64,000 nt of DNA. Source: an uncultured Lachnospiraceae bacterium. Lineage in GTDB: Bacteria > Bacillota > Clostridia > Lachnospirales > Lachnospiraceae. Of this stretch, positions 297 through 3,465 are shown piece after piece. Numbering within the stretch: the stretch's first letter is position 1; every line of letters starts with the position of its first letter. A program made the translations under genes and the position numbers. The stretch spans positions 62,001 to 126,000 of the forward strand of contig CANTEG010000009.1 in NCBI GenBank assembly GCA_947652735.1, given 5' to 3'. Under the pieces are notes generated by a model that saw nothing but the letters and a program-made list of their open reading frames with translations, was not told where the DNA came from and searched no databases.

Positions 297-330
297 CGGG
301 GTTCCTTGTTAACAGGGAACCCCGTTTTTT
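297..330 (+). terminator. Rho-independent terminator of tuf
   Basis: A GC-rich hairpin, CGGGGTTCC paired with GGAACCCCG around a short loop, is followed by six T residues. It lies directly after the tuf stop codon and also overlaps the 3' end of the antisense MFS remnant. Confidence 0.93.
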
Positions 331-633
331 ATTGTTTATCCATTTCAAATATAACCTGCTCTTTTTCCATATCTCTAAAGAACCCTATTGCAGACAATCC
401 GACAACATATACAATTAGTCCCGTTGAGATTAAACACAGGTATATTGCATTCCTAAATTGGTCAAACAAAAAACCATAAATAATCTGTCCTATAGGTTGG
501 GCACATAATGTAATAGCAGATGTATAAGCCATTACTTTTCCAATTAAATGATTTGGTGTCCTTTGCTGGATACGTGAAACCGCAAAAATAGAAAAATTGC
601 TGTAGTCCATTCCAAGGAACTGAGAAAAGAAAC
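329..633 (-). pseudogene. MFS efflux transporter, C-terminal remnant
   Basis: The minus strand encodes about 100 residues resembling the last two or three membrane helices of a major facilitator drug pump of the macrolide-efflux type (SRIQQRTPNHLIGKVMAY, then hydrophobic helices, then a charged tail). A full MFS protein has about 400 residues and 12 helices, so at least three quarters is missing. An ATG exists at 610, but homology-like sequence (FFSQFLGMDYSNF) continues upstream in frame to about 633, where it meets a stop and a large inverted repeat. This suggests a deletion or rearrangement at that junction rather than a real short gene. No ribosome-binding site is seen. Probably non-functional. 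Confidence 0.75.
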
Positions 634-910: not shown

Positions 911-1939
911 ATGCAAAAAGAGTATGTTGTATTGGAAGGGAAAATTTTTGTAGTAGAGCTTTTGTCGTATATGGGTTCTACTAACTATGGATGGTGCATT
1001 TCAAAGCTGCCACAGCAAATCATTGTCATGGCAACAGAAAATGTTCCTGTGGGTGGCAAATATAGCGCGACGTTATTACAAAGATTTTATTTCGGAGCGT
1101 TGGCGACAGAGGAGGAAAAAGTTGATATTTCATTTACGCTGAATAGCTGGTCAGATTTGGATGATGTAGTGGATAATTTTACTGCAAATGTAAAGATTAT
1201 CAAAAGTGATTCGGAGGATTTTGCTTCCTACAGTGAAAATGCAGTGAAAATTGCAATGCCATATGGATTTGTACGTCCTGATGATGGTACGCAAAATTCC
1301 TGTCAGGATTATGGCTTGCCATGTATCGGACATCAAGATTTTAATCATTTAATTGTAGCATATGGTGTACCACTTGGACAAGATTTTAAAAATCTCAACA
1401 TGGCATGTGAGCCTATATATATGGGACAGAATGCGAATTTAAAATATGGCTACCCGTGTGGAGTACAGGATGCAAGCCTAAAGTATGGCTACCCGTGTGG
1501 AGTACAGGATGCAAGCCTAAAGTATGGCTACCCATGTGGAGTACAGGAGGCAAGTCTAAAGTATGGCTATCCATGTGGAGTACAGGAAGCAAACCTAAAG
1601 TATGGCTATCCATGCAGTGTGCAGAAATATGGCTACCCGTGTGGAGTACAGGAGGCAAGCCTAAAGTATGGCTATCCATGTGGAGTACAGGAGGCAAGCC
1701 TAAAGTATGGCTACCCATGTGGAGTACAGGAGGCAAGCCTAAAGTATGGCTATCCGTGTGGAGTGCAGGAAACAAGTCTTACGTATGATGATCCATATAA
1801 TGTACAGAAATATGGCTACCCGTGTGGAGTACAGGATGCAAACCTTAAATATGGCTATCCATGCAGTGTGCAGAAATACGGTTATCCATGTGGGGTACAG
1901 GATTCACAAGAGGCACGCATATATGCGGTTCCATTTTAA
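911..1939 (+). CDS. Candidate RiPP precursor: I42-like N-domain plus 13 tandem KYGYPC(G/S)VQ repeats
   Basis: 342 residues with a good AAAGGAG site before the ATG. Residues 1-102 look like a chagasin/I42 cysteine-protease-inhibitor fold: STNYGW fits loop 1 of that family (NPTTGYSW), a VGG segment fits loop 2, then FYFGAL and SW in the loop-3 region. Residues 103-176 hold sparse degenerate motifs (PYGF 117-120, DYGLPC 133-138, AYGVPL 150-155). Residues 177-330 are 13 tandem units of 13 or 10 residues: twelve carry KYGYPC, and one is degenerate (TYDDPY). The protein ends in IYAVPF. There is no signal peptide or membrane segment. The next gene, 18 nt downstream, is a radical SAM-SPASM enzyme, so this is most likely its peptide substrate, with Tyr/Pro/Cys of each unit as candidate modification sites. 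Precursor role and domain assignment are inferences; the repeats are seen directly. Confidence 0.72.
   Translation: MQKEYVVLEGKIFVVELLSYMGSTNYGWCISKLPQQIIVMATENVPVGGKYSATLLQRFYFGALATEEEKVDISFTLNSWSDLDDVVDNFTANVKIIKSDSEDFASYSENAVKIAMPYGFVRPDDGTQNSCQDYGLPCIGHQDFNHLIVAYGVPLGQDFKNLNMACEPIYMGQNANLKYGYPCGVQDASLKYGYPCGVQDASLKYGYPCGVQEASLKYGYPCGVQEANLKYGYPCSVQKYGYPCGVQEASLKYGYPCGVQEASLKYGYPCGVQEASLKYGYPCGVQETSLTYDDPYNVQKYGYPCGVQDANLKYGYPCSVQKYGYPCGVQDSQEARIYAVPF
1439..1900 (+). repeat. Tandem 39-nt/30-nt coding repeats
   Basis: Within the precursor gene, near-identical units of 39 nt (13 codons) alternate with a few 30-nt units (10 codons) lacking the last three codons. Neighbouring units differ by only a few bases, mainly at third positions, which points to recent expansion by slippage or unequal crossover. 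Array length is likely to vary between strains and could be mis-assembled by short reads. Confidence 0.95.
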
Positions 1940-1957
1940 TGACTAAGGAGGAAACTT

Positions 1958-3385
1958 ATGAAATATCAGCCAATTACCTGTGTATGGGAAGTGACTATGG
2001 GATGCAATATGCGGTGTGGACACTGTGGTTCTTCCTGTGCAAAGCCTTTGGAGGGCGAATTGACTACAGAAGAAGCACTGGCTTTATGTGACCAGATTGC
2101 AAATCTCGGGCTTAAGTGGGTTACATTATCTGGCGGAGAGCCTCTTATCAGGCAAGACATTGCACAAATTGTAAAACGGTTATCCAGTCAGGGAGTTTTC
2201 GTTAACATGATTACCAATGGGCTACTTCTGGATAGGGCTATGGCAGAAACGTTAAAGGAAAATGGAATCGCAACACTTGCAATCAGCATTGATGGAACAA
2301 GAGAAATTCACGATGAGATTCGCAAGAAAGGTGCCTTTGATAGTGCGAGGGAAAGCTTTCAATACATGACGGAGCTTGGCATCAAAAGTGGTGTTGTTAC
2401 GACCATTACAAACAAGAATATAGATATTCTTGGTGAATTAAAGGAAGAACTGATTCGTATGGGCGTAAAAACATGGCAGGTACAGATTGGTCTTCCGATG
2501 GGAAATTTAAAGGAGAAACCAGATTGGCTTCTTGCACCTGAAAGAGTTACGGATATTATTGATTTCTGCTATGAAACGGCAAAAGAGGGCAGAATTAAAA
2601 TTTATCCTGCGGATTGTATCGGCTATTATACTAAAAAGGAACTGGAAGTTAAAAAGATATCGTATGAAACAGACATGGTATCTTTGTGGGACGGATGCAA
2701 CGCAGGAATCAGGGGCTTTGGAATTTTACATGATGGAAGAATTCTCGGATGTACATCCATACGTGAGGAACAGTTTATCGAAAAGAAGTCCATACGGGAA
2801 AGCACCCTTAAGGCTATTTGGGATAATGAAGGTGCTTTTGCATGGCGCAGGAATTTCAAGAAAGAGGATTTGGACGGAGCTTGTAAAACCTGTGTCTATG
2901 GTAGTAAATGTTTGGGCGGATGTCCAAATACAAGGCTTACCATGAATGGAAGTATAAACTCCGAAAACCAGTACTGTGCATACAATCTGAAGCTGAAAGA
3001 AATGCAGAAAAAGCAGCAGGAAATAACTGATGCTAAGGGTCTGTTTGAACAAGCCGAGGACTTGATTAAGCTGGGAATATATCAGGAGGCAGCAATTATT
3101 TTAAAGCGACTCACGGAGCTTGAACCAGACAATGAAAAGGCATTGGTTGTTAAGGCGTATGCTGAATACATGTGCGGCAACTATGAAATCTGCAAGGAGG
3201 ACAATGCGAAAGCACTGGAAATGAATGCAGGTAATGCGGACGCATTAAGCGGATATGCGATTGCACTTTACAACTTGGGGGATAAACAGGGCGGAATTGA
3301 TCATATGAAAAGGGCAGTCGTACTTTCAGGCGGCAGACGGGATTTGCAGGAGGATTTAGCAGGAATGATGGCTGCGGCAAACTAA
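1958..3385 (+). CDS. Radical SAM/SPASM peptide maturase with C-terminal TPR-like region
   Basis: 475 residues with an AAGGAGG site before the ATG. Radical SAM cluster cysteines are C16, C20 and C23 (Cx3Cx2C), followed by the SAM-binding TLSGGEPLIR at about 56-65. The C-terminal SPASM domain has the complete seven-cysteine pattern: C247 and C265, then C309-x2-C312-x5-C318-x3-C322, then C340, enough for two auxiliary 4Fe-4S clusters. Residues about 357-475 form helical TPR-like repeats (YQEAAIILKRLTELEPDNEKAL and similar), perhaps for binding the long repetitive substrate. SPASM enzymes of this kind install thioether, C-C or epimerised residues in peptides. The reaction here is unknown, but the adjacent Cys/Tyr/Pro repeat protein is the obvious substrate. 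I do not see a PqqD-like recognition domain, a dedicated protease or a transporter next to it. An anaerobic-sulfatase-type maturase is less likely, as no sulfatase is present. Confidence 0.88.
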   Translation: MKYQPITCVWEVTMGCNMRCGHCGSSCAKPLEGELTTEEALALCDQIANLGLKWVTLSGGEPLIRQDIAQIVKRLSSQGVFVNMITNGLLLDRAMAETLKENGIATLAISIDGTREIHDEIRKKGAFDSARESFQYMTELGIKSGVVTTITNKNIDILGELKEELIRMGVKTWQVQIGLPMGNLKEKPDWLLAPERVTDIIDFCYETAKEGRIKIYPADCIGYYTKKELEVKKISYETDMVSLWDGCNAGIRGFGILHDGRILGCTSIREEQFIEKKSIRESTLKAIWDNEGAFAWRRNFKKEDLDGACKTCVYGSKCLGGCPNTRLTMNGSINSENQYCAYNLKLKEMQKKQQEITDAKGLFEQAEDLIKLGIYQEAAIILKRLTELEPDNEKALVVKAYAEYMCGNYEICKEDNAKALEMNAGNADALSGYAIALYNLGDKQGGIDHMKRAVVLSGGRRDLQEDLAGMMAAAN

Positions 3386-3428: not shown

Positions 3429-3465
3429 GGACTTACGGGTATTTGCCCGTAAGTCCTTATTTATC
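3429..3465 (+). terminator. Terminator after the radical SAM gene
   Basis: A perfect 11-bp stem, GGACTTACGGG with CCCGTAAGTCC around a 6-nt loop, is followed by TTATTTATC and preceded by a six-T run. It closes the two-gene precursor/maturase operon. Confidence 0.85.

Follow-up and report, generated by a model that had tools for sequence, protein, structure and literature searches.

A two-gene unit for a repeat protein and a radical SAM enzyme

The window analysed here, a 64,000-nucleotide stretch of a contig from an uncultured Lachnospiraceae bacterium, carries close to its start two adjoining genes whose features are located in Table 1. The first encodes a precursor protein with a head, a connecting region and a tail of short repeats. 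As the original prediction had stated, the tail holds 12 copies of KYGYPC(G/S)VQ, beginning at residues 178 to 322, and one decayed copy, TYDDPYNVQ, at residue 291; the units follow each other at 13 residues, with 9 at two places and 22 at one, across the decayed unit. KYGYPC is identical in all 12 intact units, despite synonymous differences among units in each of the six codons. Inspection by eye, without a predictor, revealed no signal peptide in the 342-residue precursor. Two Pfam matches were set aside as false, their best stretches lying inside the YG repeats: PF21403 to the repeat tail (6.2e-9; 13 residues) and PF06505 to the related locus L022 (4.9e-8; 23 residues).

Table 1. Location in the window of the two genes and their features
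Feature	Position	Strand	Basis
Repeat precursor, 342 aa	911..1939	+	ORF; predicted chagasin-fold head and XYG-repeat tail
Predicted chagasin-fold (I42-like) head, residues 1-97	911..1201	+	Predicted structure
FASYSEN, an F(V/A)xxSE-like segment, candidate site of maturase recognition	1220..1240	+	Sequence comparison
Three extra XYG sites in the region linking head and repeats: PYG (Y118), DYGLP (Y134), AYGVP (Y151)	1259..1366	+	
Repeat array, 12 KYGYPC(G/S)VQ units, predicted K-Y-G splice sites	1442..1900	+	
Decayed unit TYDDPYNVQ, residue 291, without YG	1781..1807	+	
Predicted splicease of 475 aa, a radical SAM/SPASM maturase ending in a TPR tail	1958..3385	+	Pfam, NCBIfam, trees, signature residues
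Radical SAM CxxxCxxC (C16, C20, C23)	2003..2026	+	Alignment
SPASM seven-cysteine region (C247-C340)	2696..2977	+	Alignment
TPR tail, about residues 359-457	3032..3328	+	Pfam TPR_2, consensus-TPR profile matches
Terminator-like hairpin after the two-gene unit	3429..3456	+	

The second gene starts after a gap of 18 nt, which contains AAGGAGG, and codes for a maturase with Pfam matches to Radical_SAM (3e-26) and SPASM (6.3e-6). The gap and the full sets of three and seven cysteines had been noted before and are borne out: the SPASM cysteines are C247, C265, C309, C312, C318, C322 and C340, and all ten are invariant in 41 aligned sequences, from the window and 40 related loci. The TPR tail, absent from the original prediction, matches profiles of consensus TPR chains and, at 5e-6, Pfam TPR_2, its 26.7 bits lying just below the cut-off of 27. 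TPR was considered as a marker of leader type and rejected, TPR being matched also in the GG-leader loci L072, L075 and L050, and lacking in L044 and L046. A single terminator-like hairpin, 43 nt beyond the maturase, closes the unit, as had been read. No + strand ORF of at least 40 aa lies between 480 and 911, and we agree that no exporter or protease gene occurs within the 64-kb window. The host genome (2.77 Mb, completeness 100) has one copy of the maturase.

The maturase and an X-Tyr-Gly partner occur together

One scan of genome contigs yielded 47 maturase loci, among them L016 from the cultured Kineothrix alysoides; the four named records whose maturases are most identical to that of the window are metagenome assemblies carrying the labels Clostridium, Clostridiales, Butyrivibrio and Bacteroides. 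On reading the ORFs by hand, we found an XYG partner adjoining the maturase in 44 loci: a chagasin-type repeat precursor in 34, a short GG-leader peptide with YG in five (L044-L047, L050), and another YG-bearing protein in five (short in L036 and L039; an SLH protein in L037 and L038 and a dockerin protein in L040, these three by Pfam). The three loci without one are L029, at a contig end, L056, where the maturase frame is split near a contig end, and L051, whose GG-leader peptide carries LYDIPP and no YG. A mechanical rule (two or more XYG[VIYFLAGMT], with a density of 1.5 or more per 100 aa, on the + strand within 600 nt of the maturase) picks out a partner in 39 of the 47 loci, as against 7 of 3,663 control ORFs, which lie farther away in these loci and were scored on motif density alone; the rule was framed post hoc, and one count is in loci, the other in ORFs.

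At the level of whole genomes, the maturase is present at E<=1e-60 in 3 of 61 (the host's own included), and the repeat protein in the same three. All three are from the genus, which is represented by 37 genomes; the distribution is patchy. Across the class, 13 of 391 genomes have the maturase at E<=1e-50, and in 12 of these a YG partner was read near it, some 2.3 kb away in L074; the exception is L076, whose match contains stops, as do three of the four f39 matches. The pairing of maturase and repeat substrate originally proposed thus recurs, and homologues that never occur with YGxP proteins, envisaged as its refutation, are not what these genomes and loci hold. Maturases at 44-46% identity (L050, 45%) have GG-leader peptides with KYGV or LYGI cores nearby, and ORFs resembling C39-type ABC exporters by eye are found near those of L050, L073 and L075.

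Residues were counted in the region beyond residue 110 of 30 precursors, using three different anchors. At the 166 Pro-Cys places, Y stands at -3 in 162 and G at -2 in 162; at the 216 aromatic-Pro places, Y is found in 209, G in 205 and Cys in 160; and at the 219 K-[YFWHC] places the figures are 211 for Y, 210 for G, 183 for Pro and 178 for Cys. The constant element of the unit across relatives is X-Tyr-Gly, Cys and Pro being less constant, and Lys takes the X position at 210 of 314 XYG sites. X-Tyr-Gly is all that the more distant systems retain (KYGVVID, LYGIEPP, LYGIPP, VYGGPEYF). The exceptions concern Gly: the repeats of L041 are mostly IYAYP, YAGP stands next to YGGP in L077-L080, and L051 has its LYDIPP. 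One substrate rule is suggested for precursors as unlike as GG-leader peptides and SLH, dockerin and chagasin-fold proteins.

The precursor head is predicted to be chagasin-like

The large N-terminal domain noted originally is present, and structure prediction gives its residues 1-97 the fold of chagasin, a cysteine-protease inhibitor. The Pfam I42 cut-off (27.2) is exceeded in the relatives L070 (46.4 bits) and L048 (34.8 bits); the window protein falls below it. In a Foldseek search with the head, 2nqd ranked third (TMt 0.62), surrounded by other Ig-like folds, and the search by itself does not single out chagasin. Just beyond the head, F104, S108 and E109 are present in at least 90% of 30 aligned heads. 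The F(V/A)xxSE-like pattern that they form part of occurs in 28 of the 35 precursors listed, as against 15 of the 3,663 control ORFs, having been defined post hoc from the precursor set already inspected; it recurs in the SLH-type proteins of L037 and L038 and in short ORFs of L036, L039 and L085.

Two genes of the host match C1 peptidases, the papain-like class that I42 inhibitors act on, above the cut-off, both with hydrophobic N-termini by eye, and a profile search of it that matched in 8 of 14 controls returned no C39 peptidase. With neither a visible signal peptide nor a C39 peptidase in the genome, the precursor has no evident route to proteases outside the cell.

Kinship of the maturase

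The nearest NCBIfam model is TIGR04103 (nif11-class peptide maturase 3), matched at 5.8e-63 with 212.9 bits, below its cut-off of 725; TIGR03913 (6.6e-58) comes second and TIGR04133 third, both likewise under cut-off. The same two lead, again below cut-off, for the maturases of L044, L048, L050, L072 and L080. We take TIGR04103 to be IPR026482, the PlpX family; the likeness to PlpX is drawn from the models and the published description. A search with TIGR04134 matched neither of two Bacteroides-labelled genomes, but also none of 14 controls.

Partners of more distant enzymes, read in six of the 16 neighbourhoods of plasmid matches to the maturase, commonly carry YG. At a Nostoc TIGR04103 locus, a Nif11-leader precursor ending in IALYGLPPELF is accompanied by the radical SAM gene and, behind it, a 71-aa ORF without a Pfam match. 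Two of three DUF1843 peptides at an Azospirillum TIGR03913 locus have YG (MLYGGAM, KPYGVAI), as has one of three at an Aureibacter locus; near an Agathobacter maturase (47%), a short unannotated ORF ends in PVMYGTGVRM; a Parabacteroides TIGR04133 enzyme adjoins an annotated lipoprotein with CEYGSPHANF; and the sole YG of the Tropicibacter locus is an LYGAD within a 276-aa protein.

A first tree, with a distant outgroup, had very long branches and an unresolved base. Rebuilt with its three longest rows removed and the root placed by choice on four rows, the tree sets the window group apart, at an SH-aLRT of 99, from the rows of Nostoc, Azospirillum, Aureibacter and f39; in these sequences the split is supported, its polarity not. 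Ten YG-linked maturases have W173-Q174-x-Q176, M181-G182-N183 and G222-Y223 in common, a set that does not show in the alignments printed for SkfB, PqqE and anSME. A cysteine pair, C27/C220, is invariant in the window group, with Ala or Asn at these positions in the Nostoc, Azospirillum, Aureibacter and f39 enzymes.

Tyramine excision as the predicted reaction

In the available text of PMC11002830, PlpX is an IPR026482 SPASM enzyme which, paired with the small RRE protein PlpY, targets Xaa-Tyr-Gly in Nif11-type precursors. Its natural sites are given, in the available part of PMC10533398, as MYG and LYG, at which C8H9NO is lost and the leader is dispensable; the same part describes use of PlpXY with a PlpA2 core tag, PIRPGYGLPI, and its LYG form, PIRPLYGLPI. 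The LYG tag was rejected at both FtsZ sites tried (Table 1 of PMC10533398), which indicates that sequence context matters. A review, in the portion available, adds that XYG can direct several splices per precursor and that the beta-residues produced by splicing are said to give potent protease inhibition (PMC10373908, citing Scott et al. 2022).

The proximity to TIGR04103, together with the XYG motif, favours tyramine excision of the PlpX type over a cross-link. We consider it likely, from these sequence features, that the maturase is a splicease which excises tyramine at many sites to give lysine ketoamides. The Tyr, Pro or Cys cross-link first put forward as the likeliest chemistry gives way, Cys and Pro being the less constant residues; the change now predicted is -135.07 Da per site in place of -2 Da. 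The statement that no described class has the YGYPC unit also needs amending, since the unit includes the XYG splice site of spliceotides. Several observations count against splicing. The maturase reaches 212.9 of 725 bits, does not group with the Nostoc enzyme in the trees and has its C27/C220 pair; a PlpY-like gene is absent from the two-gene unit, whose gaps of 18 and 43 nt are too small for one; YG is found also in partners of TIGR03913 and TIGR04133 enzymes; and Gly is not absolute, as L041 and L051 show.

From the anatomy of the unit, its co-occurrence in relatives, the constancy of XYG, the predicted head fold and the kinship with TIGR04103 and TIGR03913, we infer the reaction, docking, target proteases and site of action proposed here. 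The maturase would dock on the precursor, probably via FASYSEN, the chagasin-fold head or both, perhaps helped by its TPR tail. It would then proceed along the repeat tail, removing a tyramine unit from every K-Y-G tyrosine and rejoining the backbone, at a cost of 135.07 Da per site; the calculated average of 37,886 Da for the unmodified protein would fall to about 36,264 Da with 12 sites spliced. A spliced K-Y-G would read -NH-CH(Lys side chain)-CO-CO-NH-CH2-, a ketoamide whose P1 residue is lysine and whose P1' residue is Gly, and the product would be a single protein with up to 12 electrophilic ketoamides, or 15 if PYG, DYG and AYG are included, behind the predicted chagasin-fold head.

An inhibitor fold carrying ketoamides would suggest a multivalent protease trap. 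On this model, the chance that the product is a multivalent inhibitor of proteases, binding them in a reversible-covalent way, falls a little short of even. We are more tentative about the full arrangement, a two-part trap in which a chagasin-fold head and up to 12 enzyme-made P1-lysine ketoamides would belong to one protein kept whole, neither cut nor exported.

Other roles and other modifications

The tail might instead be a structural, adhesive or storage polymer, strengthened or made metal-binding by its modification, with the chagasin fold serving just as a docking leader and no protease as the target. Unlikely on balance, though deserving attention, this reading is about function and is compatible with splicing. 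It draws on the YGFP sites that L037, L038 and L040 carry on SLH-domain and dockerin proteins, on the EYGSP of the annotated lipoprotein partnering the Parabacteroides TIGR04133 enzyme, and on a long fibronectin/YD-like ORF found downstream in three loci. The inhibitor-like predicted fold of the head and the prevalence of Lys as X, which fits a P1 warhead, speak against it, and both would still be compatible with a structural role.

SPASM enzymes form many cross-link-type bonds, and the same Tyr-Gly could undergo an aryl cross-link or cyclophane formation, a thioether bond from the nearby Cys, or oxidation, giving small rings at -2 Da each. The window group's own C27/C220 pair, absent from the TIGR04103 and TIGR03913 members compared, is in keeping with this, as is the Cys that follows Pro in 160 of 216 aromatic-Pro units and in all 12 intact window units; thioether and cyclophane models match too (StsB 125.5, WgkB 108.7, SkfB 101.3 and PapB 74.5 bits, the last missing its cut-off of 340). 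These scores are well below the 212.9 bits of TIGR04103, however, about a quarter of anchored units lack the Cys, as do many GG-leader and SLH-type YG sites, and X-Tyr-Gly is more constant than Cys; we regard such a modification as improbable. That the repeat array expands without being modified and lies beside the maturase by chance is hardly credible: recombination easily enlarges repeat arrays, and copy number is variable (the 30 precursors have 6-16 XYG sites each after residue 110), but the post hoc rule separates 39 of 47 loci from control ORFs, KYGYPC is kept despite varying codons, and the partner gene precedes the maturase at some loci and follows it at others.

Neighbouring genes in relatives

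In many relatives the neighbours of the candidate protease trap include a divergently placed LytTR/GHKL sensor pair and a hydrolase that may be papain-like. Among 31 loci, a LytTR regulator cluster lies divergently upstream in 12, a GHKL kinase cluster in 13 and a protein of about 300 aa in 10, the Pfam names being taken from L028 alone. The last has His34, Glu46 and Cys149 invariant in six aligned members and is possibly a permuted papain enzyme related to YiiX/C92; one of four members scanned matched Pfam C92, at 20.8 bits against a cut-off of 27, and the best match to yiiX in the PDB had an E of 0.68, with a poor structure model (pLDDT 45.6). A search of the 61 genomes, the window's included, gave no match to it at E<=1e-8, the search having no positive control.

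Comparison with known systems

Literature searches, in which most subscription papers lay outside the scope, found no paper joining chagasin with radical SAM. Among the best matches listed, chagasin was absent from those on spliceotides, XYG or RiPPs, YGYPC was not joined with radical SAM, and the YGXP, YGYP and YGFP motifs did not appear with radical SAM or RiPP; matches to YGVP, YGIP, YGTP and YGGP were unrelated to such systems. The names TIGR04133 and TIGR04134 were not found in any paper.

PapB-type ranthipeptide systems with CXXX repeats, the comparison first drawn, are alike in having a SPASM maturase and a repeated motif; they differ in that the PapB model is matched at 74.5 of 340 bits and Cys, in 160 of 216 units, is not the most constant residue here. 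The GDL-motif systems (TIGR03913, DUF1843 peptides) share YG in two of three Azospirillum partners, on short single-site peptides and with maturases of 32-34% identity. The TIGR04133 rSAM/lipoprotein system of Bacteroidota has the C27/C220 pair in common with the window enzyme, with one site on a lipoprotein and without the WQxQ/MGN/GYY set. Chagasin and the other I42 inhibitors resemble the head in predicted fold, but the head lies below the I42 cut-off and is fused to an XYG array.

The closest parallel is with the PlpXY spliceases of the Pleurocapsa plp cluster, which, as far as the available text goes, likewise have a radical SAM/SPASM enzyme beside XYG precursors with possibly several sites each (PMC11002830, PMC10533398). 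The Nostoc TIGR04103 locus, with its Nif11 precursor, radical SAM gene and small ORF, resembles the plp layout as described there, and its LYGLPPELF site is an XYG like those of PlpX spliceases. Unlike PlpXY with its Nif11-type leader, the window system has a predicted chagasin-fold carrier, mostly Lys as X, 6-16 sites, a C-terminal TPR and no PlpY-like gene, and its maturase groups apart and has a Cys pair of its own. The title of Scott et al. 2022 (Chem 8:2659) reportedly speaks of 'peptides and proteins'. The reaction type, the XYG rule, its use at several sites and its wide spread are already published, 27 other characterised and 939 predicted splicease systems being cited from Scott et al. 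in the part of PMC10533398 available. The chagasin-fold carrier looks like an unusual use of a known kind of enzyme, the 939 predicted systems being known here by count alone. If the reading is right, backbone splicing would occur at high density on a folded-domain protein, native KYG substrates would be useful for Lys ketoamides or for many labelling handles per chain, and splicease chemistry would be tied to an inhibitor fold, the function of its product being testable in one assay.

Genes around the maturase and its homologues

SLH-domain and dockerin proteins with YGFP sites occur in three relatives (loci L037, L038 and L040) and are probably substrates of the same enzyme family. VYGGP/YAGP proteins adjoin distant maturases (35-37% identity) in loci L077-L080, and Pfam detects zinc ribbons in L080.

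Features near the window maturase and its homologues (coordinates are those of each locus)
Feature	Locus	Coordinates	Strand
Short ORF, like C-terminal end of MFS transporter (by eye)	Window	329-610	(-)
YGFP-bearing protein, SLH-domain or dockerin type	L037	5198-5989	
YGFP-bearing protein, SLH-domain or dockerin type	L038	5032-5982	
YGFP-bearing protein, SLH-domain or dockerin type	L040	5406-6011	
Further radical SAM-like ORF near maturase	L071	6468-7934	(-)
Further radical SAM-like ORF near maturase	L072	7891-9357	(-)
Long ORF 3' of maturase, fibronectin/YD-repeat-like by eye	L017	7621-13428	
Long ORF 3' of maturase, fibronectin/YD-repeat-like by eye	L035	7992-13418	
Long ORF 3' of maturase, fibronectin/YD-repeat-like by eye	L055	7625-13426	
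~300-aa protein, upstream flank	L015, L016, L017, L021, L028, L034, L035, L043, L054, L055		

Divergent clusters of LytTR response regulators (12/31 loci) and GHKL kinases (13/31) occupy the upstream flanks of relatives' loci, and possibly place these loci under peptide-sensing control. The ~300-aa upstream protein, whose His, Glu and Cys are invariant in an alignment of six members, may be a papain-like partner. Downstream, the three long ORFs, which belong to related loci, encode at least 1,808-1,935 aa and continue past the end of the examined DNA. The second radical SAM-like ORFs come from two Clostridia; that of L072 falls under the cut-off for every NCBIfam model among the matches listed (25 of 82).

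In the window, the MFS-like ORF has the tuf-like end on one side and the repeat gene on the other. An Agathobacter plasmid also groups an MFS gene with tuf and a related maturase.

A cysteine pair in the maturase

C27 and C220 of the window maturase are invariant in all 41 aligned sequences. The pair is also present in a TIGR04133 enzyme, and the TIGR04103/TIGR03913 members compared carry Ala/Asn at these positions; the pair may mark a functional difference.
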